Source: a virus
Virus record (IMG/VR): IMGVR_UViG_3300032053_000189
Coordinates: 1 to 39,920 of that record
Strand: one strand, 5' to 3'
Length of the DNA: 39,920 bases
The stretch's first letter is position 1, and every line of letters begins with the position of its first letter. Below, in pieces: positions 6,266 to 39,920 of this stretch. A model generated the notes under the pieces. It saw only the letters and a program-made list of their open reading frames with translations, searched no databases and was not told the origin of the DNA. Made by a program: the position numbers and the translations under genes.

Positions 6266-8167
6266 ATGCCCTCAACCGCGATGGTCAGACCCCAGGAGGT
6301 GCCGGCGAAGGTCGTGCCGACGCACCTGTTCCGCTATCTGTACAAGGGCCTCCGCGAACCCCGCGCCCTCACCTCCGTCTCCAATCGCCTCCTCCGGGCG
6401 ATGGGCAATCACCCCTTCGTGCGCATGATCGTAGAGCGCCGCAAGAGTCAGGCCGTCAACTACTGCCGCGAGCCGCGCTTCCGGGGCGACACGGGCTACG
6501 ACATCATGCTCCTCAACGAGCAACGCCTCGCGTCCGAAGACGAAGAGCGGCGGCGCCAACTCCTCAACTTCCTCAAGAAGGGCGGCTTCGAGTGGAAGCG
6601 CCCCCAGGACGGGCGCAAAGCGGCGTGGATGGGCGATGCGAAGACGCGCGCCATTCCCTTCGCGGTGATGATCAACCTCCTCCTGGAGGACTCGCTCATC
6701 TTCGACTCGGCGGGGTTGCGGTTGGAACCTGGGGCCAATGTCAGGGATTACCCGGTGGCCTGCTACCGTCCGGTGAATGGTGCCAACATCCGCCTCGCCG
6801 ATCCCGAAGACTATGTGAAGGAGTACCGCCAGGACCTCAAGTACCCGGAGTTCGTCGTCCTCGACCCCAACCAGCAGGACGTGAAGTACGAACTCGGCTG
6901 GGACGAGTTCGCCTACTGGGTGCGCAATCCCACGACCATCGAGGAGCAGGAGGGCTATGGCCGCAGCGAGTTGGAGTGGGCGGTAGACATCCTGACCGGC
7001 CTCATCAGTTCCTACAAGTACAACGTCTCGCAGTTCACGGAGAACAAGTTGCCCCGGGGGATCATCCAGGTTCCTGACGTAGACGAGGACATCCTCGACG
7101 AGTTCCTGACCACGCTGGAGATGAACATCGGGGGGCCGGGTGGCCAGTGGAGCAGCATCCCGGTCATCCGCACACGCGAGGGCGACACCAAGCCGACGGT
7201 GCAGTGGATACCCCTGGGCGAGCGGCCCACGGACATCCAGTTCCAGCAGTTCATCGTCCTCTCCATCGGCGTCCTCTGCAACCTCTACAAGATGAGTTCC
7301 GAAGAGATCGGCTTCCAGTCGTTCACCACGAAGACCAGCAGCCTCCAGGAAGCGGACCCCGAGACCAAGATACTCCACGGCGAGGACACCGGCTTCGTGC
7401 CGCTAATGACCTCGCTGGAAGACTTCATCAACGACAACATCATCAGCAAGTACGACGACGGCAAGTGGCGCTTCGTGTGGAAGGAGTTGGGCAAGCAGCG
7501 CGAGGAGCGGGACAACCTCCTGCGGCGGGATCGGCTCGGCGTAGGTTTCAGCACCATCGAAGAGGAGCGAACGTGGGCCGACAAGCCGATGAGGAGGTAC
7601 CCGTTGGACCTGCCTCTCTGGCAGAAGACCCAGGGCGAGATAATGAAGGAGCACGGTCACCTCCTGGACGACCCGGACAACTTGTACTTGGCCACCGAGA
7701 GACTGTACGCCGCCCAGGGAGGGAGTTTCTCGCTGGCGACACAGGTGCCGCTGTCGGCGGTGATGATGCAGATGTGGTCGCAGGAGATGATGCAGCGGCA
7801 GCAGGTGGAGGAGCAGAAGCGCGGGGAGGAGGAGGTAGACCCGTGGGCGGCGCACGGGTTGGAGCCACCGGAGGACGCCAACCCGCCGCGCTTCGGACAA
7901 CAGCAACGGCCGGGCCAGCAACGAGATGAAGGGGAGGGGGGGAGAGGCAACGGAGACGAGCGGGGCCAGCAGCAGAGCCAGCGACGGGAAGAGTTGCGGA
8001 AGAGCAGGCCCAACCCGCCCGTCGGCTCCACCTGTGGCCCAGTAGGTTCGGTGACGAAACGAGATCGCCGGCCCAGTTATCTGCGCAACGTCACGCGCCA
8101 CCCGGAGGACTGGGTAGAGTGCTACGTCCGCACGGCACTCGGGCCGGATGATGACTACAATGAGTGA
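6266..8167 (+). CDS. Portal protein
   Basis: Forms the dodecameric channel at the capsid vertex for DNA entry and exit. The 633-residue protein follows terL and precedes the minor head gene. Its middle has portal-like features: 'YGRSELEWAVDILTGLISSY' near 230-250 and 'NKLPRGIIQVPD' near 260, then 'IGVLCNLYKMSSEEIGF' near 345, the helical stem and crown region. The C-terminal 130 residues are rich in Q, E, G and R and look disordered. CTGGAG at 6253-6258 is the ribosome site. The assignment rests on these motifs and on synteny. The subfamily is not certain. Confidence 0.88.
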   Translation: MPSTAMVRPQEVPAKVVPTHLFRYLYKGLREPRALTSVSNRLLRAMGNHPFVRMIVERRKSQAVNYCREPRFRGDTGYDIMLLNEQRLASEDEERRRQLLNFLKKGGFEWKRPQDGRKAAWMGDAKTRAIPFAVMINLLLEDSLIFDSAGLRLEPGANVRDYPVACYRPVNGANIRLADPEDYVKEYRQDLKYPEFVVLDPNQQDVKYELGWDEFAYWVRNPTTIEEQEGYGRSELEWAVDILTGLISSYKYNVSQFTENKLPRGIIQVPDVDEDILDEFLTTLEMNIGGPGGQWSSIPVIRTREGDTKPTVQWIPLGERPTDIQFQQFIVLSIGVLCNLYKMSSEEIGFQSFTTKTSSLQEADPETKILHGEDTGFVPLMTSLEDFINDNIISKYDDGKWRFVWKELGKQREERDNLLRRDRLGVGFSTIEEERTWADKPMRRYPLDLPLWQKTQGEIMKEHGHLLDDPDNLYLATERLYAAQGGSFSLATQVPLSAVMMQMWSQEMMQRQQVEEQKRGEEEVDPWAAHGLEPPEDANPPRFGQQQRPGQQRDEGEGGRGNGDERGQQQSQRREELRKSRPNPPVGSTCGPVGSVTKRDRRPSYLRNVTRHPEDWVECYVRTALGPDDDYNE

Positions 8168-9212
8168 TGGCATCCGCGTCTTCTTCGAGCCGGGAACGGA
8201 TCCCGATGAGGCCTTTGCGTTATTGGCGAAGGCGCTCAAGCACCCGTTGACCAGTGCCGAGGTGTCCCTCGCGCTGGAGGACACCAGGGAATTGCGGGCG
8301 GAGTTGACGGGGATCATGGAGCGAATGCTCCCGGCTTACGAGGCGCACTACCTGTTGTTGGAGCAGACGCTCAAGCGAGCGCGGGGCCGCAGGCGCGAAG
8401 GCCTCCTGGAGGAGCAGGGCCACCTGCGGGCGCGGTACGAATGGCTCTTCCGCATTCACTTCAACCGCTACTATGCCGACCAGTTCCTCGCCGGGAAGAG
8501 GCTGGCGGGCAACGGCAAGGGCCTCGACCGTTCGGAGAGGGAGATCGTCCGCAGGTTGAGCAACAGCGAGGCACAATACGCGCTGAACTTCATGCTCGAC
8601 GCGCAGACCGGCGAGTATCGGATGCCATTGGAGAAGCGCGGCGCGCTCTACGGGAACGCCCTCGACGAGTTGAAGTGGCTGGGGTTCCTCTACGGCGATC
8701 TTTCGCAGGATAGGTTTGTGAGGTGGGTCATAGACGCACCTCAAGAGAGTTGTGTTGACTGTCTCTTCCTCGCTGGCCGGCTCGACCTGCTGGAGAGTGA
8801 GATAGCGAACCGGGCGGCGAAGAGGACACCCCCGGACCCGACCGAGGCGGAGCACGCACTCCTGGCGATAGTGGAGGCCAACCGAGAGACGCAGGGCGGA
8901 CGTTGGGGCATCGGCGTCTACCGGGCGCAGGAACTGGTGCGGATGGCGATAGTGCCGCAGTCCGGGCGGCTGACTTGCACCACCAACTGCAAGTGCGGCC
9001 TGGCTGAGGTCGAGAGGCCCGCCGGGAGGGGTAAGCAGCCGGAACGGCGGGAGCCATTCGAGGCCCTGATCCCGAAGAAGCCGACCATGCTGCAGCGCCG
9101 GACCAGGAGGGGCGAGCGGGTGAAGTTGGCGGGGCGGGCGGGACACTGGAAGCATGAGCACGTCCGCAGGGCCGGCGTAGAGCCGTTGCCCAAGGCGAGG
9201 AAGCCCGATTGA
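8148..9212 (+). CDS. Minor head protein, MuF/gp7-like
   Basis: A 354-residue protein beginning inside the end of the portal gene, where minor head (SPP1 gp7, Mu gpF) proteins usually sit. A long helical N-terminal half is followed by the usual cysteine signature: 'CVDCLFLAG' at 202-210 and 'CTTNCKC' at 277-283. In the family, C-x-x-C...N-C-[KR]-C marks the MuF domain end. The last 60 residues are basic. ATG 8148, 8151 and 8160 are all possible; the longest is given. No toxin domain is evident. Such proteins join the portal and may enter the cell with DNA; that is family knowledge, not shown here. Confidence 0.72.
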   Translation: MMTTMSDGIRVFFEPGTDPDEAFALLAKALKHPLTSAEVSLALEDTRELRAELTGIMERMLPAYEAHYLLLEQTLKRARGRRREGLLEEQGHLRARYEWLFRIHFNRYYADQFLAGKRLAGNGKGLDRSEREIVRRLSNSEAQYALNFMLDAQTGEYRMPLEKRGALYGNALDELKWLGFLYGDLSQDRFVRWVIDAPQESCVDCLFLAGRLDLLESEIANRAAKRTPPDPTEAEHALLAIVEANRETQGGRWGIGVYRAQELVRMAIVPQSGRLTCTTNCKCGLAEVERPAGRGKQPERREPFEALIPKKPTMLQRRTRRGERVKLAGRAGHWKHEHVRRAGVEPLPKARKPD

Positions 9213-10050: not shown

Positions 10051-11748
10051 ATGCCAGCCTTCATCAAGACAGCCCGCGACGAGCGCCTCTGGTGTGAGGC
10101 TAAGGCCGCTGCTGCCGAGGCCGGGCTGTCTGAGGAGAAGGATGGCGACCGCTACTGGCGGTATGTGAACGGCACCTACCAGCGCATGGCGGGGAAGAAG
10201 AAAGGGAAGGTCCGGAAGGCCTTCGTGGCGGTTGGTCATCTGGCAAAGGCAATTCACGTAAGGGCTTATCTCAAGAAGGCGATGCACATTGAGTTGGGGA
10301 CAAAAGGTCTCCGCCAAACTCACCAGTTGCCCTTCCCGCCGACGACCAAGTGCGTACACTGTGGTGGCGAGGCCCGTATCGCATTCACTGGCATTGAGCG
10401 TGGCCCATCGGCCGGTCCTGAGGCCGGGGGTCCGTTCATCTGTGACCTTTACAGGAATAATCCACCGCACCGCGGCGAAGACGAAAAGGCTCGCTCAGGG
10501 CGTGCGTTGTGGCCGCATGATTGTGCAGCCTTTGCGGTCTATCTGTGCAAGAAATGCCTCGAACGCGCCCAGGCTAACGATGAGCGGGCTGTCGCGCATG
10601 ACTACATAGTGACGAAGCAACCATTGCCCCGGGAGGTCTGTGAGTCATTGGAACTGACCCCCTGCTATGTGCCGCCTGTACGCGGTGATCTGACCAAGGC
10701 CCACGTCCGTGCCCATACCCGGCACGTCGGCGGGAAGTATGTGCAGGTGCAGGCGCACGAAGATAAGCGGCTGGCGGTGCCCAAGCCAAGTAGTATCAGC
10801 CCTGCACCGTCTTGGGCCTCCGAATCACGTGCCTACACTGAAGAGGCCGCTCAATGGGGCCCCGAGTGGATTGGCACAGCAGCCAAACACAACAAGTTTC
10901 CACGAGACAAGGCGATAGCCGTCTGGAACTATGGGCCAGAGGCCGTCGCCATCGGGGGTGGAGGTCATCTGCTGGGTATTGTGTTGTCTGCGGCACTTGG
11001 GCGCGAAGTTGAGCCATTCCGTGAAGGATTCCAGGTCACAGAACATGAGGCACGATGGATGGGCATTGATCCGGACAAGGCAGACCAGGGTTGGTGGCAA
11101 TTGATGCCAAAGGGTCCCCGTTTTCACAGACCCGGCGAACTCGCCAAGGCCGTCGTCCGCGTCTCGCCTCACTACCGCAGCCGGGGCCGCACCTACGTCC
11201 GCGCCCACCGGCGGGAGATGAACGTACCGGCCAGTTTCGGCGACGAGAAGTGCCGCGACACGGTGGCCCTGCCGAACGGCGAGCCAGTGCTTATCCTTAC
11301 CTTCACCAGAGGCCAGGGGCCGGGTGCGGAACTCGCCTTCCTCTCCTACAACAAGGCCGGAGAGTTGGTCGGACATCTTCGCGTCGGTGTGGAGGGCGAA
11401 CTGGGCGTAGACGGGGCCGGCGTCAAGGACCAGGTCGTGCGCGTACAGTGGGCCGAGACGGATGGCTCGGCGCTGGAACAGGACCTACACGGGCCGGTGA
11501 TCCGCCGGCTCGTCTCCTTCTACGGGGCGATGTACGTGCCGGAGGGCGTCCACCCGGACTTTCAGGCGACCATAGATCGTCTCGGCCCAGGGTATGAGAA
11601 GAGAGAGACCAATCCGGTTGTCACCACACCAGGCGGGCGGTTGAGACTCTCTAACGACTGGGAGCCGCAGTGGCAGCGGGTGAGCCGGGTGCTGCCGACG
11701 CTGTTCAAGTCGAGGACGCGATGTCTGCAAACTTCCATGACCAACTAG
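10051..11748 (+). CDS. Large multidomain protein with VRAH motifs (polyvalent-type protein 1)
   Basis: A 565-residue protein. The N-terminus, 'RLWCEAKAAAAEAG' to 'YWRYVNGTYQRM' (residues 12-46), matches a short module I associate with phage head and scaffold-type proteins (W-x-x-A-K...Y-x-x-V-x-G-x-Y-x-x-M). A cysteine/histidine region follows: CVHC at 101-104 and CKKC at 166-169, a possible zinc ribbon. VRAH-type motifs lie near 67-76 (weak), at 216-237 and at 366-389; the last two are bipartite, K-x-x-V-R...G-[KR]...V-x-A-H. The C-terminal domain (about 395-515) is not recognised. AGGAT at 10040-10044 is the ribosome site. Its size and place after the portal block suggest a packaged polyvalent protein; this is inference. 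Bases 10761-11145, between two motifs, are visibly less GC-rich than the downstream part. Confidence 0.72.
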   Translation: MPAFIKTARDERLWCEAKAAAAEAGLSEEKDGDRYWRYVNGTYQRMAGKKKGKVRKAFVAVGHLAKAIHVRAYLKKAMHIELGTKGLRQTHQLPFPPTTKCVHCGGEARIAFTGIERGPSAGPEAGGPFICDLYRNNPPHRGEDEKARSGRALWPHDCAAFAVYLCKKCLERAQANDERAVAHDYIVTKQPLPREVCESLELTPCYVPPVRGDLTKAHVRAHTRHVGGKYVQVQAHEDKRLAVPKPSSISPAPSWASESRAYTEEAAQWGPEWIGTAAKHNKFPRDKAIAVWNYGPEAVAIGGGGHLLGIVLSAALGREVEPFREGFQVTEHEARWMGIDPDKADQGWWQLMPKGPRFHRPGELAKAVVRVSPHYRSRGRTYVRAHRREMNVPASFGDEKCRDTVALPNGEPVLILTFTRGQGPGAELAFLSYNKAGELVGHLRVGVEGELGVDGAGVKDQVVRVQWAETDGSALEQDLHGPVIRRLVSFYGAMYVPEGVHPDFQATIDRLGPGYEKRETNPVVTTPGGRLRLSNDWEPQWQRVSRVLPTLFKSRTRCLQTSMTN

Positions 11749-14638
11749 CCGAATGGGATAGGCGCTTCACCGCCGTCCGCAAGAGTGTCCACATGCCTCT
11801 GTTCGCCAAACTGAGAAAGGCGATGGTCCGGGTCCGCGCCCATCCTCGGCAGAAGCCCAAGGGCGGCGTCACCTTCGAGCGGGCGAAGACGCAACAGCGC
11901 AAGGAGTACAAGCCGAAGGCGAAGCCCACCGAGGAGAAGATCGCCCGCCTGCCGCTGGCGACCGTCCGCCCGGATCCTTCTCAGCATCGCAAGCTCTTTG
12001 ACAGGGCGAAGTTGCAGGAACTCGCCGACAGCATCCGCGAGACCGGGCAGAAGACGCCGATAGTGGTGCAGCCCATCGCCGGCGCGGGTGCCGTCAAGTA
12101 TCAGATCATCGCGGGCGAGCGTCGCTACCGGGCCTGCCAACTCCTGGGCCTCAAGGAAATCAAGGCGATCATCCGCCACGATGTCACTGAGGAGAGCGTC
12201 CTCACCGAGCAGGTCATCGAGAACGTGAACCGCGAGCAGGTCACGCCGATGGAGGAGGCCGTCGCCTACCGGCAGTTGGCCGACCTGTTCATCAGGAAGG
12301 CGAAGCGCACGAAGAGGTGGCAGGGCAAGGACTTCAAGGACCCGGCGGTGGCGGCGCGACTCGAGGACGCGGCGCGCGAGTGGGTGGCCAAGCAGACCGG
12401 GAAGAAGCAACACCACGTCACTTTCTATGTCAAGTTGACGGAACTTGAGCCGGAAGTGCAGGAGATGGTGAGCCGGGGGGCCCTGACGCCCCGGCACGGC
12501 AACATCCTGACGCGCTTGACGGACAACGTGACGGAGCCGAAGCAACGGCGGGAACGCCTACTCCACCAGGTGCGGATGGCGCGGCACGCCCGGGCGCACA
12601 GCCTCGCCGCCGACATCCTCAACGGGATGATTACCGAATACATCCGGGCGCAGGAACAGCAGGTCATGTTCTCGGAGGAGGAGGCCACGGGCGGCGAGAG
12701 GCAGGTGGCGCGCGGGGAGCAGAAGGCCAAGATAGACCGGATTGCCGAAGCGGTGGCCGACGCCATAGCGGTCGCCTTCTCGGAGGAGAAGGGCGCTTTC
12801 CAACCGGAGTTGCTGACCAGCGGCGACCTGCAGGTGAACTTGCAGAAGGTCGAGGGGGCCATCAACACTCTCGGTCAGATAGTGGGGCTGATGAAGCAGG
12901 AGATGATGAAGCGGGAGGCGGTGGAGGCGACGAAGCGGCGGCAGGTATCTACTGGCGGCGGGATGGTGGAGGCCGGGGCGTTGGTGGTGCCAGTGGCGAC
13001 GCGTTCACTCTTCGGGACAATGGAGAAGTCCCTGGCGACGCTGGAGGACCGGCGGGAAGCACTAGGCAAGGAGTTGGACAGGCGCGGGGCACCGCTCAAG
13101 AAGGCTCATGTCCGGGCACACCGCCGGCGGTTGGAAAGCGGAAAGATCACACAGGTCCAGGCGCACGAGACCAGTGCCGTGCCAGCCTCGCAGGGAACGG
13201 CACTCTTTGAGGTTCCCGTTGCAGTGCCAAAGACGAAGGAGGACCGCAAGCGGGAGAGGGCGAGGCAGAAACTCAGCGCTCTCTTCCAGCCCACGGCTGA
13301 GGACCTGGAGCAGGAGGAGCGGCGACACAGCGAAGCCACTGCCTACCTAGCGGGTGATCTTGAAACACTCAAGGAAGCGCGCGGTGGTTTCCGCTTGCTG
13401 CCCGACCTATTCATGCGGCTAAAGGGTCAAGACCTGTCGGAGTTTCCCGAAGCAGTCTTCCAACGGTACTGGCAAGTGGTCAAGGACCGAGTGGGTGAGG
13501 GTGTGAACGTCGAACCACCACCAGAGGGCAGTCATCTGCGGCGACGGTGGGATGAGTATGAAGTACTGCGCCAGAAACTGGGCCAGAAACATTATGACCC
13601 GGAGTACAACGACGCAGTCCGGCTAAATGAGAAGTTCGAGGCGGAGGCAGTGCAGCGGGGGGCGCGGTTGAGCAAGTCCCGCCGGGTGAAGGCCCATCCC
13701 CTCCGCACGAAGACCGGGGCCGTAGTCATCCGCCGGGCGCATACCGACATCCGCCCATCCAAGGCCACCACGCCCGAGATCAAGAAGCGCACTATGAGGA
13801 AGTACGAGGCGTGCCTGACGTTGCGGAAGGCACTGTCCGAGATAGACGCCGCCGTGGAGAAGGACCTGCAACGTCGGGATACACCCATCACCAAGGTGGC
13901 GGCGGCGATGGTGGCGCTGATTCGGCAGTTGAACCTGCGGGTCGGGTCGGAGAGCATGGCCCAGACGCACGGCACCTTCGGTGCGGCCTCCCTCCGCAAA
14001 GAACACATCAGGATCGAGGACGACACGGTGAGATTGCAGTTTCCTGGGAAGAAGGGCGTGGCCTGGGATCGCACAGTCGCCGATCCGGCGCTCGTGGACT
14101 TCCTGCGGCAACAGGCAGACCGCAGCCCGGGCGAGAAACTCTTCTGGTATAACGACCACGGTGAGCAGGTGGAGGTTGACGAACGGGTGCCGAGGGCCTA
14201 CCTGCAGAAGTTCGGCGTGAATCCGAAGGACTTCCGCACCTACCAGGCCAACCTGCGGCTCTTCGAGGAGTTGAAGGCGCGGGAGTTGGGTGAGGGAGCC
14301 AAGCCTAGCGAAGTCAAGAAGTCCCTGCGGGAGGCGATGGCGGTGGTGGCCGAGGAGATGGGCCACGATCCCGGCACCTGTCGGACTTCGTACATCTTCG
14401 AGCCGTTGTGGAGGTCGTACCTGGAGAACGGCGGCCGGTTGACGGTACGGCAACCGTTCTCGGGTGGGGCACTGGCGAAGGGGGTAGTATGCCTGTGAGA
14501 CTACCTCAGCGGGCGGACTTGGAGCAGGACTTCTGGGCCTGGCTCGACCAGTGGCAGGGCGGACTGCGGAAGAGTCGCGTCCGGGCGCATCCCATGCGCA
14601 CAACCTCCGGCACCGTGACCATCAGGCGGGAACACGAG
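10696..14638 (+). repeat. Recurring VRAH linker motif in three adjacent genes
   Basis: Copies encode a basic 20-24 residue motif, roughly K-x-x-V-[RK]-x-H-x-x-x-x-x-G-x-x-x-x-[RV]-x-H. Locations are 10696-10761, 11146-11217, 11826-11879, 13101-13169, 13680-13742 and 14573-14638. A seventh copy is at 39732-39791, far outside this block. The DNA copies are alike in the core (GTCCG-GC-CA) but clearly diverged, so they are old or under protein-level selection. Several lie exactly between recognisable domains, for example just before the topoisomerase domain and before the SNF2 protein's unknown module. Confidence 0.7.
11721..14498 (+). CDS. ParB-like nuclease/partition domain fused to type IB topoisomerase
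   Basis: A 925-residue protein. ATG 11721 is preferred over GTG 11670 because GAGG lies 5 bases upstream of it; it overlaps the previous gene by 28 bases. Order: VRAH motif near 36-53; ParB/Spo0J N-domain 74-188 with 'GERRYRA' at 132-138; a KorB-like helical region with 'PEVQEMVSRGALTPRHGNIL' near 244-263; VRAH motif 461-483; unknown helical module; VRAH motif 654-674; topoisomerase IB domain about 688-901. The latter has all five catalytic residues expected from vaccinia and bacterial TopIB: R740 in 'LNLRVGS', K777 in 'FPGKKG', R839 in 'KDFRTY', H882 in 'MGHDP' and Y891 in 'CRTSYIF'. It should therefore relax supercoils through a 3'-phosphotyrosine. Substrate and time of action are unknown; delivery with the injected DNA is inferred. 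Confidence 0.88.
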   Translation: MSANFHDQLAEWDRRFTAVRKSVHMPLFAKLRKAMVRVRAHPRQKPKGGVTFERAKTQQRKEYKPKAKPTEEKIARLPLATVRPDPSQHRKLFDRAKLQELADSIRETGQKTPIVVQPIAGAGAVKYQIIAGERRYRACQLLGLKEIKAIIRHDVTEESVLTEQVIENVNREQVTPMEEAVAYRQLADLFIRKAKRTKRWQGKDFKDPAVAARLEDAAREWVAKQTGKKQHHVTFYVKLTELEPEVQEMVSRGALTPRHGNILTRLTDNVTEPKQRRERLLHQVRMARHARAHSLAADILNGMITEYIRAQEQQVMFSEEEATGGERQVARGEQKAKIDRIAEAVADAIAVAFSEEKGAFQPELLTSGDLQVNLQKVEGAINTLGQIVGLMKQEMMKREAVEATKRRQVSTGGGMVEAGALVVPVATRSLFGTMEKSLATLEDRREALGKELDRRGAPLKKAHVRAHRRRLESGKITQVQAHETSAVPASQGTALFEVPVAVPKTKEDRKRERARQKLSALFQPTAEDLEQEERRHSEATAYLAGDLETLKEARGGFRLLPDLFMRLKGQDLSEFPEAVFQRYWQVVKDRVGEGVNVEPPPEGSHLRRRWDEYEVLRQKLGQKHYDPEYNDAVRLNEKFEAEAVQRGARLSKSRRVKAHPLRTKTGAVVIRRAHTDIRPSKATTPEIKKRTMRKYEACLTLRKALSEIDAAVEKDLQRRDTPITKVAAAMVALIRQLNLRVGSESMAQTHGTFGAASLRKEHIRIEDDTVRLQFPGKKGVAWDRTVADPALVDFLRQQADRSPGEKLFWYNDHGEQVEVDERVPRAYLQKFGVNPKDFRTYQANLRLFEELKARELGEGAKPSEVKKSLREAMAVVAEEMGHDPGTCRTSYIFEPLWRSYLENGGRLTVRQPFSGGALAKGVVCL

Positions 14639-17600
14639 AAAAGGGAGACTCCTGGGCAACCGGAGTTCACGGTGATGCGTGGCCCTCACGGCCTGGATGT
14701 GAAGGTCTATCACGACGGACGTGAGACCGGGGGTTCGTGGGTGGTCTACCTGCACCACGGCAGTGGCAAAGCAGATCCTCCTCGCTTGGCGGTTTTTGAC
14801 AAGAAGCCCGTACCGGGTAGGTCCACAAAGTTACCCCGGCAGACGGCACATCACAGTTACGTATTCAACTCCAAGGATGCCGCATTGCGCGTTGCTCTCT
14901 CTCCTGACCTATTGAGAGGAAATGAGTTCACCGACGCCTACAAAGCCACTCATATTGGGTCTGCCTACTATATAGGTGTAGACTATTCCAAGCTGCGCAA
15001 GGCCGTCACCATCCCTCAAGCCCGCGAAGGCGGCGTACTGGTCGTCCTCCGCAAGGCGCACTTCAGTGCTCAGGAGATGAAGCAACTCGGCCTCCGGTGG
15101 GTGACGGCCCGCCCAGGCGGCCAAGGCACCAAGGGCGTACCAATCATCGTCAAGGACCTCGGCGAGGATGAGGCGATGGTTGTTGGTGGGGCGGGTGGGG
15201 AGCTCAACTATGTGCGGTTCCGCAAGCCCGCCGGCGGCTTGAAAAAGATAGGGAAGAAGCCCAAGGACCAGACACCCCTCTCGGAAGAGGAAACCACTGA
15301 ACTGGAGAAGCAGAAGGGCGAGGCGGGCGCGGCCCGCCAGCAGAAGCAGACCGAGTTGGAGCAGACCATCAGGGAGCGGCTCGGGGAGAAGTACGGTGAG
15401 TTGACGGCTCAGGAGCGACGCCGCATCGCCCTGCAGGCCCGCCAACGAGCCGAGAAGATGGGCGCGAGCGAGCAGGAGGCGAAGCAACTGGAGGAGGGGG
15501 CCATCAGCGAGCAGGAGAAGGCGGTTGCCGAGGCGGCGAAGAAATCCGCCGCTCAGGTCGCTCGCGCCGCCCTGGACGCCCTCGCCCGGGAGGAGGCGAC
15601 CGGCCAGCCGCAGGATAGTGAAGTTCAGGTCACAGACGCCTCCGGCGAGGTGCGGAAGATACGCCTCTCGGCAGAAGACGCCCAGGAGATCGCGGCCAAG
15701 GTCTTCGAGTTGCGCCGGGCCCGGGGCGAAGAGAGAGCCGTGGCCAGGGCACTGAGGCGCGGTGACGCCAAGGTGCAACGGGCCGTTGAACTCCTGACTC
15801 AGCCGCTCTCCGAGGAAGAGGTGCGGCGCCTCGCCCTCGCAGACCACGTAGACCGGGAGCAGGTGAAGACCAACGTGCAACTCGCGGAGTTGGCCGACCC
15901 GGACCAACCGCTGGCCGCGAACGCGATGCAAGCCGGTGCGGTAGACGCGGGCGCCGGCATGGCGGCTGAGGTCTCCGGGGAGACCATCCTGCGGCCGGAG
16001 ACGGCGCAGAGGCTGGGGGTCACCGGCAGCGCCCGCGTGATCGCCCACTACCTCCGGGGCAAACACGACCCGAAGAAGATGGCGAAGGCCATCCAGCAGT
16101 TCATTGCGACGACGGGCGGGGCGACGGCGGCGATGGCGGTAGCGAAGAGTGAGGAACTGCAGGGGCAGGCCGAGAAGATCAGGGCGATGGGCGGCGCTGG
16201 CGGCTTGCTGACTCAGAGGCAGGCGACCGCCAAGGCCCTCGAAGCCACCAACGAGGCCAAGCGCATCTGCGCCAGGGCACTCGGGGGCCTGGAGACGATG
16301 GCTCAGGTCGCCCTCATGCTGGAGCAGGGCGTAGGGGGCAACCTCGCGCTCACGGCGCGGTCTACGCGGCTAGGAGCAGTGGCGCAGGCGGAAGAACTCG
16401 GCCTCGACAGGGGCGACTATGCCATTACCCAGGGGGCCGCAGGCAAGTACGTCGTGAACGTGAAGGAAGAGGCCCTGGACAAACTCGCCTCGCCGCAACC
16501 GCTGGAGCAGTGGGAGGGCGACAAGGAGATTCAGGAGATCAAGGTGCGGGGGCGTGGTGAGGGCTGGGAGGACTGGAAACCCGAGGGTCAGGGGGAGGGT
16601 ATCATCCTCTCCGCGCACCAACAGGCCGACATCAAGTTCTGGGAGCGACAGAAGAGCATCCTGGTGGGCGACGAGGCCGGATCAGGGAAGACGGCAGTCG
16701 CCCTCTGCGGCATCGCCCACCTCGCCAAGCAGGGCAAGGTAAAGAAGGCACTGGTGGTGGTACCCAAGTCGGTTCTGCAGCAGTTCGGCAAGGAGGCCGC
16801 CGTCTTCCTGGACCCGGAGACGGCCAATAACTATGTGACGATCAGTGCCGAAAAGATGAGTGGGTCTCAGCGTCGCAAAGCCTACGCAGGGGACCAACTC
16901 TTCACGGTGGTAACGCACGACACCCTCCGCAACGACGGACTATTCATCCAGGAGGCGGGCTTCGACGCGATAGTAGTGGACGAGGCTCACTACCTCACAC
17001 AAAGGGAGGGCGGCAAGCCCAGCCAACGGAGTGAAGTCCTGCGGGAACTCCAACCCCCGTATCGCATGATGATGACTGGCACGCCGGTGAAGAACGACCT
17101 CTCGGAGCTCTGGTCAATGGTCGAGTACCTCCAGCCGGGGTTGCTCGGTTCGCAGAAGGAGTTCATGGCCCGCTACGGCAAACTGGGGCAGACGGTCGGA
17201 CCCATGGACACGAGTTTGCTGCACGCCCTCCAGCAGAAACTCGACGGGGCGATGATCGGCATAAAGATGACGACGAAGCACACCGAGGGGGGCCGCGAGG
17301 TTCTGGAGATAGCGCCGGAGAAACGCGGGGGCAACCCCATACGACTGCGCCAGGACGAGAAGCGGGTAAAGTTGACCGAGAGGCAGGCGGCGGATTACCG
17401 GGCCATCGAGCAGAACTTCCTCAAGATGAAGCACGAGGCCGCGTTGCCGAAGGGCGCTGCCCTGAACAAGGAGAGTGATCAGAGGAGGATAGTCAACAAC
17501 ATCTCGCCGGAGGACAACAGGAAGGTCGGTGCGGTCAAGGAGATCATGGCCGCCCACCCGGACGAGAAGGTCATCATCTTCGCCACCAACGACTACGCCA

Positions 17601-18034
17601 TCGAAACCGTGAAGGCGGGGCTGGGGCTGCCTGAGAATGCCTATGGGATGATAAACGGTTCGGTCGGTTCCGGGAAGCGCTCGGCCCTGGCCGACCAGAT
17701 GACCACGGATCCGAACCTCAAGGTGCTCTTCTGCACCGACGCGGCCAACTTCGGCATGAACATTCAGGGGGCGAGTGTGGTAGTCAACTTCGACACGCCG
17801 GACACGCAGGCCACGGTGGAGCAGCGAGTGGCGCGTAGTTTCCGGCGCAAGCAAACGCGAGACGTGACGCTGTATCACGTTCGCTCCGAGACGCCCCTGG
17901 AGTTGACGGCGGCCCAGAGATTGAAGAGGAAAAAGGCCAGTATGAGTGTAGCCGATTCGCTCTCGATGGCCGACGAGACCGGGTTGGCCGGGACCCTCTA
18001 CGAGTTGCTGCAGGCGCAGGAGGTGGCGGAGTGA
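14489..18034 (+). CDS. SNF2-family helicase with long N-terminal extension (polyvalent-type protein 3)
   Basis: A 1181-residue protein. ATG 14489 with AAGGGGG 5 bases upstream is better than GTG 14408; the gene overlaps its neighbour by 10 bases. A VRAH motif at 29-50 precedes an unrecognised module (about 60-240). A long charged helical and coiled-coil region (about 260-560) follows, then the SNF2 ATPase: Walker A 'GDEAGSGKT' at 727-735, 'DEAH' at 831-834, 'TGTPVKN' at 863-869, and the C-lobe motifs 'CTDAANFGMNIQ' and 'QRVARSFRRKQ' near 1081-1115. The domain predicts ATP-driven translocation on double-stranded DNA. SNF2 domains in phage head-region proteins are a known trait of polyvalent proteins. 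Partner and substrate are unknown. Confidence 0.9.
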   Translation: MPVRLPQRADLEQDFWAWLDQWQGGLRKSRVRAHPMRTTSGTVTIRREHEKRETPGQPEFTVMRGPHGLDVKVYHDGRETGGSWVVYLHHGSGKADPPRLAVFDKKPVPGRSTKLPRQTAHHSYVFNSKDAALRVALSPDLLRGNEFTDAYKATHIGSAYYIGVDYSKLRKAVTIPQAREGGVLVVLRKAHFSAQEMKQLGLRWVTARPGGQGTKGVPIIVKDLGEDEAMVVGGAGGELNYVRFRKPAGGLKKIGKKPKDQTPLSEEETTELEKQKGEAGAARQQKQTELEQTIRERLGEKYGELTAQERRRIALQARQRAEKMGASEQEAKQLEEGAISEQEKAVAEAAKKSAAQVARAALDALAREEATGQPQDSEVQVTDASGEVRKIRLSAEDAQEIAAKVFELRRARGEERAVARALRRGDAKVQRAVELLTQPLSEEEVRRLALADHVDREQVKTNVQLAELADPDQPLAANAMQAGAVDAGAGMAAEVSGETILRPETAQRLGVTGSARVIAHYLRGKHDPKKMAKAIQQFIATTGGATAAMAVAKSEELQGQAEKIRAMGGAGGLLTQRQATAKALEATNEAKRICARALGGLETMAQVALMLEQGVGGNLALTARSTRLGAVAQAEELGLDRGDYAITQGAAGKYVVNVKEEALDKLASPQPLEQWEGDKEIQEIKVRGRGEGWEDWKPEGQGEGIILSAHQQADIKFWERQKSILVGDEAGSGKTAVALCGIAHLAKQGKVKKALVVVPKSVLQQFGKEAAVFLDPETANNYVTISAEKMSGSQRRKAYAGDQLFTVVTHDTLRNDGLFIQEAGFDAIVVDEAHYLTQREGGKPSQRSEVLRELQPPYRMMMTGTPVKNDLSELWSMVEYLQPGLLGSQKEFMARYGKLGQTVGPMDTSLLHALQQKLDGAMIGIKMTTKHTEGGREVLEIAPEKRGGNPIRLRQDEKRVKLTERQAADYRAIEQNFLKMKHEAALPKGAALNKESDQRRIVNNISPEDNRKVGAVKEIMAAHPDEKVIIFATNDYAIETVKAGLGLPENAYGMINGSVGSGKRSALADQMTTDPNLKVLFCTDAANFGMNIQGASVVVNFDTPDTQATVEQRVARSFRRKQTRDVTLYHVRSETPLELTAAQRLKRKKASMSVADSLSMADETGLAGTLYELLQAQEVAE

Positions 18035-18437: not shown

Positions 18438-19559
18438 ATGCCAGACCCCATTCTTGAGACCAGCAAAGCGGAGGCCACCGTGAAGTTCGCGGTGGTCGTG
18501 CCGCTGCAGAAGGGCATCTACCAGGAGGACGGCTCCATCCTCTTCCATGCCATCGCCAGTTCCGACGCTCTGGACTGGGAGAACGAGCGCGTACCTCAGG
18601 ACATGGTGGCCAAGTCCTTCCCCTACCTGGAGCGGTTCGGGAAAATCAATTTCGACCACGGTGACGTAGATATCGGCGACGTGCAGGAGATACGCCGGAT
18701 CAGCCCCGAGGAGGTGGCGCAACACTTCGGGCGGAGACTCGACGGGGAGAACGGGACCTACGTCAAGTTCCGCGTCTACCCGTTGGGTGACGCCTTGCTG
18801 GCTCCCGAGGACCTGAAGCGCGCGCACTACTACGCCCAGAGCGGCGCGAAGTTGGGTGTGAGCGCACAGGGGACCGCGATCCGCCAGGGAGGAGAACTGG
18901 TCGGAGCGATGGTCGCCAAGTTGGCGCTTACTCCCCACCCGACGAACATGGACTGTCCGGCGGTGCCGCTCGTGAAGTCGCTGTCGGAGGTCATGGCCCT
19001 GGCCGCGGGCGACGCGAAGACCCCGGACGCGATGATATTGTGCCCGGAGTTGGAGGCGACTGGCGAAGTGGAGAGTGAGATCGTGACCCTCAGCAAGGGG
19101 TTCTTCGGGGCGTTGGTCAAGGCCATCATCGAATCGGGGTACGGCACGGATGTGGCAACTTTCACACAGGGCCAGGCTCTGCGTCAGCAGTCCCTCGATG
19201 GCGCAGACAAGGCCAAAGCCGGCAAGTGCCCCAAGTGCGGTGGCCGTACCCGGGGGGGCAAGTGCGAGAGGTGTGATGATGGGATGAAAGAGAAACCGAC
19301 GGAGTTAGGCAAGGCTCTCGCGGAGGTGGCGGCGCTCTACAAGGCAGTCTGCAGCAAGGCAAAGAAGAAGAAAAAGAAGAAGGCGCCACTGGGGTCCGGC
19401 GAACGCTTCGAGGAACTGGAGGAGGAGGCGCGTAAGGGCGGAGCCCGTGATCCGGCTGCCGTCGCCGCCGCGGCGGGCCGCAAGAAGTACGGGAAGAAGA
19501 GATTCCAGGAACTCGCTGCCAAGGGAAGGCGGCGCGAGTCCAGGGGAGGTGGCGAGTAA
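18438..19559 (+). CDS. Prohead protease with zinc ribbon and basic tail
   Basis: Cleaves scaffold and capsid precursor during head maturation. The protease part (about 12-180) has 'FHAIASSDALDWENERVP', then 'INFDHGD' with probable catalytic H74, and 'LGVSAQG' with probable catalytic S142. These are the usual histidine and serine positions of herpes/U35-type phage proteases. The extension is unusual: residues 225-254 contain 'SGYGTDVATFTQGQALR' and nearly repeat the major capsid protein N-arm; C264, C267, C276 and C279 form a zinc-ribbon pattern; then a poly-lysine run (309-315) and a basic end containing 'GRKKYGKKRFQELA'. The start has AGGAGG upstream. A scaffold-like role for the tail is possible. 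It is followed by a terminator and the acidic scaffold gene. Confidence 0.82.
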   Translation: MPDPILETSKAEATVKFAVVVPLQKGIYQEDGSILFHAIASSDALDWENERVPQDMVAKSFPYLERFGKINFDHGDVDIGDVQEIRRISPEEVAQHFGRRLDGENGTYVKFRVYPLGDALLAPEDLKRAHYYAQSGAKLGVSAQGTAIRQGGELVGAMVAKLALTPHPTNMDCPAVPLVKSLSEVMALAAGDAKTPDAMILCPELEATGEVESEIVTLSKGFFGALVKAIIESGYGTDVATFTQGQALRQQSLDGADKAKAGKCPKCGGRTRGGKCERCDDGMKEKPTELGKALAEVAALYKAVCSKAKKKKKKKAPLGSGERFEELEEEARKGGARDPAAVAAAAGRKKYGKKRFQELAAKGRRRESRGGGE

Positions 19560-19589: not shown

Positions 19590-19619
19590 GCCCGCCAGCG
19601 ATGGCGGGCTTTGTCGTTT
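19590..19619 (+). terminator. Terminator-like hairpin after the protease
   Basis: GCCCGCCA at 19590-19597 pairs perfectly with TGGCGGGC at 19602-19609 around the tetraloop GCGA, followed by a T-rich stretch TTTGTCGTTT. The U-run is broken, so read-through to the scaffold gene is likely. Confidence 0.6.
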
Positions 19620-19660
19620 CCGAACCTAGCACACTGAGACGGAAGGAGATAGAAGACACC

Positions 19661-20422
19661 ATGAGCATGACGATCGAAGAACTGTGTGAGAAGATGGGAG
19701 TTGAGTCTTCCACCCTCACCGAGACAGACGTGGATGTCATCAGCAAGGCCCTCGGCAAGGCGGCGGAAGATCAGGCGACCGTGGGCCAGAGCGAAGACGG
19801 GAACGGTCTCTTCGCCAAGGCCCTCAGCGCCGTCGTCGGCCTCCTGCGCAAGGGCACGAAGAAGGCCGAGGAGGATGAGGATGAGGATGAGGATGAGGAA
19901 GACAAGGACGAGGACGCCCGGCTGAAGCAGGCCGTCAAGGATCTGAACCTCGGCGAGGATGAGGACGAAGAGAAAGAGACGACCAAGGACAAGATCAAGA
20001 AGTCCCTGGCTGAGGACAAGGACGTGGAGGAACTGGTGTCGGCTGACGAGTTGGTGAAGGCAGTAATGGTCTCAGCGACCGGTGCCTACCAGGCCATCGC
20101 AGACAGCCAGACCAAGGTCCTGACGAAACTCGCCAAGGCCATCAGGGTCCAGGCGAACCAGATCAAGACCCTCAACGAGAAGCTGGACGGCATCGGCCAG
20201 CGGCCAGTCAGCGCGCTTGCGCCTTACCAGGTTCTCCAGAAGGGCATAGCCGCCGAGGGAACTACACTACCCGATAAGGCCACGGCCATGAAGCAGGCTG
20301 AGGTGGCCCTGAAGAAGAGCCTCATTACGCCCGCTGAGAGGCGACAGGTCGAACTCGCCTATGATCAGGGAGCGCCGGCAGCCGCCGCCTCAGTGCTGGC
20401 GCGCATCCGGACTGCAGAGTAG
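19661..20422 (+). CDS. Acidic scaffold-like protein
   Basis: A 253-residue protein between the prohead protease and the major capsid gene, where scaffold or head-assembly proteins are found. AAGGAGAT at 19643-19650 supports ATG 19661 rather than an upstream start at 19601. The composition is strongly charged, with two acidic tracts near 69-85 and 97-104 and helical, probably coiled-coil regions after them. This matches scaffold proteins, although no sequence family is recognised. The acidic tract is encoded by a GATGAG-type tandem repeat. It is likely a protease substrate. Confidence 0.7.
   Translation: MSMTIEELCEKMGVESSTLTETDVDVISKALGKAAEDQATVGQSEDGNGLFAKALSAVVGLLRKGTKKAEEDEDEDEDEEDKDEDARLKQAVKDLNLGEDEDEEKETTKDKIKKSLAEDKDVEELVSADELVKAVMVSATGAYQAIADSQTKVLTKLAKAIRVQANQIKTLNEKLDGIGQRPVSALAPYQVLQKGIAAEGTTLPDKATAMKQAEVALKKSLITPAERRQVELAYDQGAPAAAASVLARIRTAE
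19872..19899 (+). repeat. Short hexanucleotide tandem repeat in the scaffold gene
   Basis: About four and a half copies of GAGGAT encode alternating E and D residues. Length changes here would be in frame and only alter the acidic tract, so the site could vary without breaking the protein. Confidence 0.6.
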
Positions 20423-20550: not shown

Positions 20551-21993
20551 ATGGACGTACTGGGAACGACTCCCTTCGCAGATCTGGGGGCCCTGGGTCT
20601 CGGTAATGTGAATGACCTGGTCAAGGCCCTGACCACTGGATATGGTACAGATGTGGCAGCTTTTACAGGAGGTCAGGCCCTCCGGGTGCAGTCGCTGGAC
20701 CAACTGCTGTACGACACGATCTGGGCTGACCGCCATATCCAACTGTTCAAGCTTCTCAAGCGGACCCCGATCCAGAGCACCGTGGACGAATGGACGGAGC
20801 GCAGCGAGTATGGATCTCCCTATGGAGGAGTATCGGGCGAGGCTAACAACCCCGTCTCCACCAGCGCGACGCTGGCTCGCAAGACCGGCAACGCGAAGTT
20901 CTATCGCACCTACCGCGAAGTTTCGCACGTTGCTACAATCGTGAGGAACATCATCCAAGCGGTGGCCGAGGAAGAACAGGCCGGAACCAGGTTCCTCCTC
21001 GGGAACCTGGAGCGCGACGTGTTCTTCGGCGATAGTTCCATCATCCCCGAGCAGATTGACGGGATTCTGCCGGTGGTGGTGGCTGCTGCGGCCACGGGTT
21101 GCATCCAGAACCTCAACGGCGTCGCCCTGGACAACCGGGACTACATCCACGACGGGGCCAGCACCATCGGCAGTTACGCCGGGGTGCCGACCCACTTCTT
21201 CGCCGACCCCTTCTCCAAGACCGACATTGACAAGGCCTTCCTCGGGTCTGAGCGGTTCATCCCCCAACAGGCCGGGGACGGGCAACTCCAGGTGGACCTG
21301 GGCATCGGTCGCCTGGCGACTTCCTACGGTGTCCTGCAGATGATCTCCGACATCTTCCTGGCACCCGAGCGCGGCTGGTTCAACGAGACCACGCCGCTCC
21401 ACAAAGCTCCCACGACCAGCCGGGGCGGCGATACCAGCAACCCGGCCCCGGCTGCGCCCACAGTCCTGACTTCGGCGGCTGCAGGCGCCGATGGGACCAT
21501 CCCCGCCGGTAACTACTTCTACCGGGTCAGTTCCATCAACTGCAATGGGGAGTCCGCCTCGTTGGCGAGCATCGTGCAGGCGGTCGGTGCGACCAACCAC
21601 GTCACCCTGACCATCACCCACACGGACGCGGCAGTCAAGGGCTTCCGCATCTATCGCACTGCGAAGAATGCGGCCTCCGCTGCCGACTGCCGCTACCTGT
21701 ATCAGTGTGTGGCCCTGGTGGGTGGCGTGACGACTTGGGTAGATACCGGTACGTGGGTCCCCGGCACGACCGTGTGCTTCATGGTGGACGCCAACCCCCT
21801 CGACTCGGCGCTCGACTGGCGGCAGCTCATGCCCATGATGAAACTCGACTTGGCGATCGTCAAGCCGGCTATCCCGTGGCTGCAGATGATCTACGGGTTC
21901 CTGCGCGTGACGCGGCCCAAGCGTCTCGTCATCTACAAGAACGTTCTGCCCAGTCTCATCAAGGAGGGTGGGTGGAACCCGCTCGGCACCTAA
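20551..21993 (+). CDS. Major capsid protein with an Ig/FN3-like insertion
   Basis: The main shell protein, probably HK97 fold. At 480 residues it follows protease and scaffold, with AGGAGG near 20540 as a strong ribosome site. The N-arm (22-50) contains 'TTGYGTDVAAFTGGQALR', shared with the protease tail. The following stretch 'QLFKLLKRTPIQSTVDEWTE' and later 'EEEQAGTRFLLGNLERDVFF' are typical of a class of capsid proteins. Residues about 300-420 look like an extra beta-sandwich: 'GTIPAGNYFYRVSSINCNG' and 'VKGFRIYRTAKN' have the FN3/Ig pattern. The end returns to capsid-like helices 'KLDLAIVKPAIPWLQM'. Such surface domains are known on phage capsids. Cleavage by the protease is likely but the site is not proven. 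Confidence 0.88.
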   Translation: MDVLGTTPFADLGALGLGNVNDLVKALTTGYGTDVAAFTGGQALRVQSLDQLLYDTIWADRHIQLFKLLKRTPIQSTVDEWTERSEYGSPYGGVSGEANNPVSTSATLARKTGNAKFYRTYREVSHVATIVRNIIQAVAEEEQAGTRFLLGNLERDVFFGDSSIIPEQIDGILPVVVAAAATGCIQNLNGVALDNRDYIHDGASTIGSYAGVPTHFFADPFSKTDIDKAFLGSERFIPQQAGDGQLQVDLGIGRLATSYGVLQMISDIFLAPERGWFNETTPLHKAPTTSRGGDTSNPAPAAPTVLTSAAAGADGTIPAGNYFYRVSSINCNGESASLASIVQAVGATNHVTLTITHTDAAVKGFRIYRTAKNAASAADCRYLYQCVALVGGVTTWVDTGTWVPGTTVCFMVDANPLDSALDWRQLMPMMKLDLAIVKPAIPWLQMIYGFLRVTRPKRLVIYKNVLPSLIKEGGWNPLGT

Positions 21994-28222: not shown

Positions 28223-28440
28223 ACTTCTTCGGTGCGCCGGACACGGCGGTTGACTTGCTGATGGCCTACCTCGTGACGCGGGACACGGGACTGACGCCGT
28301 GGGCGTTGGGGAAACCAATCAGCAGGCGCCGGTTCTCCCTGGCGGCCTCAGTGCTGGCCCCGGTCTTCACACTGACGCCGCTGTACATGAACTTTGCGGC
28401 CTTGAGAAAGGCGGGCACCTGCCCGCTCTTGGGAGCTTGA
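27758..28440 (+). CDS. Tail assembly chaperone, -1 frameshift product (gpGT-like)
   Basis: Same start as the short form. At the heptamer T TTT TTA ribosomes would slip back one base and continue in the frame that stays open to TGA 28438. The added part begins after 'FGEADF' and reads on as 'SRVADALSRGEALDFF', then 'TAVDLLMAYLVTRDTGLTPW', ending 'TCPLLGA'. The extension is hydrophobic and arginine-rich and would be about 86 residues, similar in kind to the T domain that binds tape measure proteins. The frame has no convincing start of its own downstream of the site, which supports frameshifting. The tape measure follows 2 bases after. Confidence 0.8.
28177..28219 (+). other. Programmed -1 ribosomal frameshift site with downstream stem
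   Basis: The zero-frame codons are GAT TTT TTA GCC, so the slippery heptamer is T TTT TTA at 28177-28183, the exact X XXY YYZ form used by many -1 frameshift signals. Downstream, GGG (28187-28189) with CGCC (28191-28194) can pair with GGCG (28210-28213) and CCC (28217-28219), giving a candidate stimulatory stem about 3 to 7 bases after the heptamer. Confidence 0.85.
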
Positions 28441-28442
28441 CG

Positions 28443-39675: not shown

Positions 39676-39704
39676 GCATAGCCCGGCAAGGAGAGGGAGA
39701 AAAG

Positions 39705-39920
39705 ATGACAGTCTGGGCGGTTCTCAACAAGGGACTCGTGCGGGCACACCAACGCACCGCGGCAGGTCGCCGGGTGCAAGTGCGCCAGTACCAGACAAAA
39801 CGGACAAAACAGGAACAGAGTCCGCAACGGCACCGCCTATCCACAGTCCGGGAGGAAATGCTGACTCGCCCGGCGATTGACGTGAACCGGTCAAAGGTGG
39901 ACACCGAGGACATCGCACCA
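39705..39920 (+). CDS. Partial VRAH-motif protein, cut by the right edge
   Basis: An open frame of 72 codons running off the window end. AGGAGAGGG ending at 39697 is a strong ribosome site before ATG 39705. Residues 10-29, 'GLVRAHQRTAAGRRVQVRQY', carry the VRAH motif found in the proteins at 10-18 kb, more than 21 kb away. The rest is basic and glutamine-rich, and no domain is complete enough to name. It lies divergent to the PD-(D/E)XK gene with 41 bases between starts. Confidence 0.65.
   Translation, partial: MTVWAVLNKGLVRAHQRTAAGRRVQVRQYQTKRTKQEQSPQRHRLSTVREEMLTRPAIDVNRSKVDTEDIAP

Follow-up and report, generated by a model that had tools for sequence, protein, structure and literature searches.

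Why should a short basic peptide centred on VRAH recur in phage proteins that are otherwise unrelated, often at the joints between their domains? The question is raised by a viral DNA of 39,920 nucleotides, positions 1 to 39,920 of IMG/VR record IMGVR_UViG_3300032053_000189 (the window; the motif, portal, protease, scaffold and capsid genes and the module copies given below lie on its + strand). An earlier note, made from the letters alone, had listed copies in a zinc-motif protein, in a protein joining ParB and topoisomerase IB domains (ParB-TopIB), in an SNF2 protein and in a partial gene at the end of the window, and had offered four options: a packaging or injection tag, a protease site, a nucleic-acid-binding linker or a recombination joint.

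The “VRAH” motif is a real module of about 32 residues, found between domains of large phage proteins, with the consensus [LI]-x-K-[SAG]-x-V-[RK]-x-[HY]-x-R-x(4)-G-K-x-V-x-V-[RK]-x-[HY]-x-[DN]-x-R-x-K, in which the [DN] of H-x-[DN]-x-R is written D in the short form of the pattern. It is longer than the peptide first described and runs well beyond the positions first assigned to it, and the constant L-x-K-[SAG] upstream is its informative part. In order to avoid circularity, significance was assessed with a profile made from 42 copies, all taken from other phages and none from the window. Five window copies score strongly with this leave-window-out profile (E 2e-12 to 7e-7, 24-42 bits), compared with a maximum of 11.7 bits over 100 shuffles of all window ORFs, and two or three further copies are degenerate; the recurrence reported in the earlier note thus holds.

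The zinc-motif protein (10051-11748, 565 aa), in which no Pfam or PHROG domain was detected, carries one strong copy, DLTK|AHVRAHTRHVGGKYVQVQAHEDKR (10684-10794, E 5e-9, predicted cut site 10690-10701), an extra LFK|S near its C-terminus and two degenerate copies absent from the first list, LAK|AIHVRAYLKK|AMHI (10240-10281) and LAK|AVVRVSPHYRSRGRTYVRAHRRE (11140-11217); neither is significant with the profile, and the former is recognised by its shape only. Three copies had been claimed for the ParB-TopIB protein (11670-14498, 942 aa; ParB_N, HTH_ParB and topoisomerase IB by Pfam). Two of them are strong, PLKK|AHVRAHRRRLESGKITQVQAHETS (13080-13175, E 2e-10, predicted cut site 13095-13106) and RLSK|SRRVKAHPLRTKTGAVVIRRAHTDIR (13653-13778, E 5e-7, predicted cut site 13668-13679), the second adjoining the topoisomerase IB domain upstream, at the Pfam boundary; the third, KLRK|AMVRVRAHPRQKPKGGVTFERAK (11793-11880), directly 5′ of the start of the Pfam ParB domain, is degenerate and scores 1.5 bits. 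The copies claimed for the two remaining genes are borne out: GGLRK|SRVRAHPMRTTSGTVTIRREHEKR (14558-14650, E 7e-7, predicted cut site 14564-14575) lies near the N-terminus of the SNF2-type ATPase protein (14408-18034, 1208 aa, Pfam), and MTVWAVLNK|GLVRAHQRTAAGRRVQVRQYQTK (39702-39833, E 2e-12) is the N-terminus of the gene cut by the window end, which the first list had placed at 39705.

Other VR.H matches in the window, such as the one at 28977 inside an HTH_17 helix-turn-helix, are attributed to chance; the protein concerned (28299-31253, 984 aa) is encoded among the tail genes and has its MerR-type HTH_17 at residues 211-252. No named family of Pfam or PHROGs covers the module, a profile search of the PDB for the motif returned only a chance match, and our literature search turned up no paper that deals with the peptide or Bacteroides phage BS162P1. 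As a separate observation, the zinc-motif protein begins (window 10051-10200) with a helical N-terminal module, R/KDExxWxxAK...YWxxVxGxYxxM, also present in two relatives, L106 (12698) and L110 (5766).

To look beyond the window, IMG/VR was scanned with DNA patterns written from the hairpin core of the module only, yielding independent phage contigs. The module recurs in about 30 of them, and profile searches of the matched records showed as many as 9 copies per contig and ORFs of up to 2824 aa. A peptide-pattern search of IMG/VR gave no close relatives of the window proteins, and tblastn against GenBank phages, with the zinc-motif protein or a motif copy of the window as query, gave no matches. 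The earlier note had considered that the motif might occur equally in non-phage housekeeping proteins, and this is not what we found: a similar pattern gave two matches in 84,980 bacterial and archaeal species (257 Gb), about the number expected by chance, and the only match of the profile in 398 genomes of one bacterial phylum was a genome already chosen for its pattern match. The module is therefore characteristic of phages.

The proteins that carry it belong to the polyvalent proteins described by Iyer et al. 2017 (PMC5512222), in which unrelated enzymatic and DNA-binding domains share one polypeptide. Pfam recognises InPase, ART-PolyVal, LPD1, DarA_C, ParB, topoisomerase IB, SNF2, S-AdoMet lyase and others among them, in varying combinations: ParB with TopIB in the window, InPase, ART, DarA_C and SNF2 or TopIB, ParB and LPD1 in relatives; the 2824-aa protein reads InPase, module, module, module, ART, module, module, DarA_C, SNF2. 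The placement at joints seen in the window is confirmed, since none of the 35 copies scored overlaps a Pfam domain (10.1 +- 2.6 expected under random placement), and for 12 of the scored copies a domain edge is no more than 30 residues away (3.4 expected). The earlier note had also asked whether hits group near portal and protease genes, and they do: in the window, as in the phages G015, G024 and G026, genes for motif proteins stand between the portal gene and that of the capsid protease.

Copies at the joints of mosaic proteins are what one would look for if the module were repeated DNA that allows domains to be shuffled. However, at the 1446 residues that within-genome copies share, codon identity (0.432) is what codon usage predicts (0.421), so that conservation acts at the protein level. 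The recombination-joint option of the earlier note is not borne out, and we regard it as the least probable of all the readings considered. Copies within a genome are more alike than copies from different genomes (0.55 vs 0.43; 0 of 2000 permutations), and such likeness without shared codons favours protein-level selection by a shared partner.

The hairpin core can also be met outside polyvalent proteins. It is inserted, without the LxK[SAG] edge, in HK97-gp10-like head/tail-completion proteins of L004 (8031-8087), L014 (8469-8525) and L016 (3867-3923), and in Bacteroides-type phages it stands at the start of neighbouring small proteins, as MKKEKxVKAH with no cut site (L123 6289-7295, L023 7430-8479); in L023, an annotated topoisomerase IB gene lies about 5 kb from the hairpin protein. 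As the copies of group G020 and those of the Bacteroides type lack the edge, the hairpin can exist without LxK[SAG]. The insertions in head-completion proteins would suit a small, mobile structural element that is directed at the host or binds neck proteins, but the copies of L004, L014 and L016 lack both the LxK[SAG] and the D-x-R flanks and may be convergent; such a role strikes us as very improbable.

What partner could read the copies? An excess of LxK[SAG] was first spotted by eye in the window and then tested in other phages: for six motif phages, all a-x-b-c patterns in the scaffold and protease sequences were counted against shuffles. No pattern is more enriched there than the module's left edge, [LI]xK[SAG]. 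L.KS heads the list (23 vs 1.26, p 3e-21), followed by I.KS (13 vs 1.25); LxK[SAG] as a whole occurs 42 times for 4.4 expected, and LxK followed by any other residue is not enriched. Taken one by one, all six phages are significant, and so are two cultured relatives, Aeromonas phage ST4 and Pseudomonas phage Touem01; HK97 shows the signature weakly. Counted over the whole genome, the pattern is not in excess in the Bacteroides-type phage G010 (22 vs 22.9), where the motif has no such edge. Across phages, scaffold sites and module sites tend to agree in the residue that follows the cut, but the trend is not significant (rho 0.52, n = 6).

Within the window, the enrichment is confined to portal and head genes and to the motif proteins, with about none in the tail genes. 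The portal protein (6266-8167, PHROG) has 3 LxK[SAG] sites for 0.38 expected; the capsid maturation protease, with its scaffold-like C-terminal region (18438-19559), has 6 for 0.75 expected; the zinc-motif and ParB-TopIB proteins have 5 each, for 0.5 and 1.25 expected, respectively. The match of the protease to phrog_1028 is weak in the window (E 0.001) and strong in relatives, and gene order also supports the assignment. Directly downstream, a protein of 273 aa (19601-20422), without a PHROG match and probably the scaffold by its position and composition, carries 8 [LI]xK[SAG] sites, 6 of which are LxK[SAG] (0.67 expected). The motif proteins thus carry the same cleavage signature as the scaffold, protease and capsid proteins of their own phage. 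One has to keep in mind that some LxK[SAG] matches fall inside folded domains, for example at 13821 in the topoisomerase domain, so that the short pattern alone is insufficient, and that the enrichment in scaffolds could partly reflect helical capsid-binding repeats. We also observed LxK|[SAG] within about 15 residues of the C-terminus in the minor head (9186-9197), zinc-motif (11701-11712) and ParB-TopIB (14472-14483) proteins.

An experimental anchor is provided by the major capsid protein (20551-21993, phrog_752), which is homologous to those of Staphylococcus phage K/812 and of SPO1. In PDB entries 9row, 9rox and 9roz, the chain spans residues 25-463 of the phage K protein, neither more nor less, and so begins directly after V-V-K24|S25; aligned with this position, the window protein has D-L-V-K|A-L, its predicted maturation site, within NDLVK|ALTTGYG (20617-20628). 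V.KS is moreover the top pattern in the protease/scaffold set of phage K (8 vs 0.47), which is the form of the known cut. Two further features of these head proteins were recorded. In the window capsid protein, residues 299-407 are additional and match a PHROG annotated as esterase/lipase; they probably make up an inserted surface domain. The protease carries at 19107-19200 a near copy of the N-arm of the capsid protein at 20611-20700 (ALVKAIIESGYGTDVATFTQGQALRQQSLDG vs DLVKALTTGYGTDVAAFTGGQALRVQSLDQ), a mimicry also found in phage K (SFLTGHGTSPDTQVDAGALRKE vs SFQTGYGITPDTQIDAGALRRE), ST4 and Touem01, which may dock the protease in the procapsid.

Because LxK[SAG] is common to the protease and scaffold, and because cleavage at a site of this type is known for a homologous capsid protein, the reading that we favour, with a probability of roughly 0.6, is that polyvalent proteins are head-packaged precursors cut at the module joints by the prohead protease, the hairpin being left on the downstream unit. 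The module would have two parts: on the left, [LIM]-x-K|[SAG], a recognition site of the capsid-maturation (prohead) protease; on the right, a short basic beta-hairpin, V[RK]xH...GKxVxV[RK]xH.D.R. Long precursors carrying ParB, topoisomerase IB, SNF2 ATPase, pyrophosphatase-like, ADP-ribosyltransferase and other domains would enter the procapsid along with the protease and scaffold, and cleavage at their joints, at the time of scaffold cleavage, would release separate effectors, which exit together with the DNA. Copies inside a protein would serve as polyprotein joints, and every downstream unit would keep the hairpin at its new N-terminus, where holding the genome or ejection are guesses at the hairpin's task. 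With one partner in each phage reading the copies, likeness within a genome without shared codons would be expected. Packaging, cutting within the polyvalent proteins and the role of the hairpin are what we infer from these patterns. The protease-site and packaging-tag options of the earlier note have both gained strong indirect support, from an edge that is the protease/scaffold signature and from a homologous capsid protein cut at K|[SA]; the cutting is predicted from sequence.

The edge precedes the hairpin in most copies. [LIMFV]xK[SAG] stands directly upstream of it in 46 of the 52 copies of the profile set, and in 20 of the 30 distinct copies found with core-only patterns; outside module copies, polyvalent proteins have LxK[SAG] barely more often than chance predicts (67 vs 55), and the sites are therefore concentrated at the module. 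Proteins of the cluster that lack the hairpin and start with other modules often still have a hydrophobic tag ending in LxK|[SA], for example MKFIFK|S, MKLLIK|A and MNRVRFIIK|S; MIFYLLKSHVKQH is a further example of an N-terminal tag. The units that follow such a tag are of several types: a second short N-terminal module, KxxxPGxRGGxYWxDxxGxIxYG, recurs there in many of these proteins, in L106, L107, L109, L110, L114, L115 and L126, and further types are KPGHKYxxRxGxxGxYxYxY and VKGYTRKNGTRVGGY.

N-terminal copies, made of M, hydrophobic residues and LLK|S, would on the favoured reading act like the capsid-targeting propeptides of T4. N-terminal tags shared by proteins whose following modules differ, and the fact that the T4 targeting sequences are N-terminal peptides of 10-20 residues (PMC5694885), would suit a packaging signal alone, a hydrophobic-LxK[SAG] element binding the scaffold or protease for entry into the procapsid, with the internal copies left uncut. 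However, up to five internal copies per protein at domain joints would be superfluous for packaging, and the strict S, A or G after the lysine is what a protease subsite selects and matches the K|S cut of phage K; we thus hold packaging without cutting to be unlikely, if the most serious of the alternatives.

AlphaFold2, run on 47 aligned copies, models the right part as a beta-hairpin (mean pLDDT 96 over residues 21-30), the fold predicted for the copy at 13080-13175, with L-K-K|A just before the first strand and outside the hairpin strands. A basic, hairpin-forming sequence next to partner domains many of which act on DNA could be a nucleic-acid-binding linker, tethering the domains to packaged or injected DNA, with the upstream LxKS merely part of the fold. 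Yet this would not account for LxK[SAG] ranking first among the patterns of scaffold and protease, nor for its place ahead of units without a hairpin, and the model puts LKK|A just outside the strands; as a full account of the module we consider it improbable. Binding of nucleic acid by the hairpin half could possibly operate alongside the cutting of head-packaged precursors.

The proposal can be set beside several known systems. Iyer et al. (PMC5512222) describe polyvalent proteins with the same domain set (InPase, ART-PolyVal, LPD1, DarA_C, ParB, SNF2), encoded by late genes near those of the portal and packaging, and liken them to polyproteins released by embedded peptidase domains; an embedded MPTase, carried by about 36%, is proposed there to process them. 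The terms searched in that text returned no mention of such a short module. An embedded MPTase is not a defining feature of every polyvalent protein, and no MPTase family, MPTase-PolyVal included, was detected at E<=0.01 in about 30 motif proteins; what we propose here differs in that the joints would carry sites read by the capsid protease, a separate enzyme.

In T4-like and giant phages the cut sites are of the form [hydrophobic]-x-E, the T4 N-terminal targeting propeptides being 10-20 residues long (PMC5694885). T4 capsid targeting with gp21 processing, and the A-x-E sites of phiKZ and SPN3US, likewise combine a short N-terminal propeptide ending in [hydrophobic]-x-[charged] with internal proteins that are ejected, but in the module lysine replaces glutamate at the cut, copies are internal too and a constant hairpin follows. 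With [LI]-x-K where T4-type sites have [LI]-x-E, the module would work like the T4 targeting and processing signals by analogy and is not a member of that family. A cut after lysine and before serine is known from HK97, whose capsid protein is cut at K103/S104 (PMC10275583), and from the proteases of Herelleviridae (K24/S25 in phage K). The known substrates of these proteases are capsid, scaffold and protease, and their predicted use on polyvalent effectors is a new proposal.

If true, the proposal would explain how some polyvalent proteins are split without a peptidase of their own, and would add a T4-like targeting tag for heads of the HK97/SPO1 type. Trypsin also cuts after lysine, and such cuts would therefore easily be missed in ordinary virion proteomics; the sequence signature would predict which phage proteins are packaged and injected, and where their mature boundaries lie. 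More tentatively, and with the odds against it, a widespread group of phages may build injected effectors as head polyproteins, in which interchangeable domains are set apart by a standard cassette of protease site and basic hairpin. One maturation protease would then convert scaffold, capsid and effector precursors together, and the hairpin would be a uniform N-terminal tag, holding each effector with the genome or ejecting it along with it.
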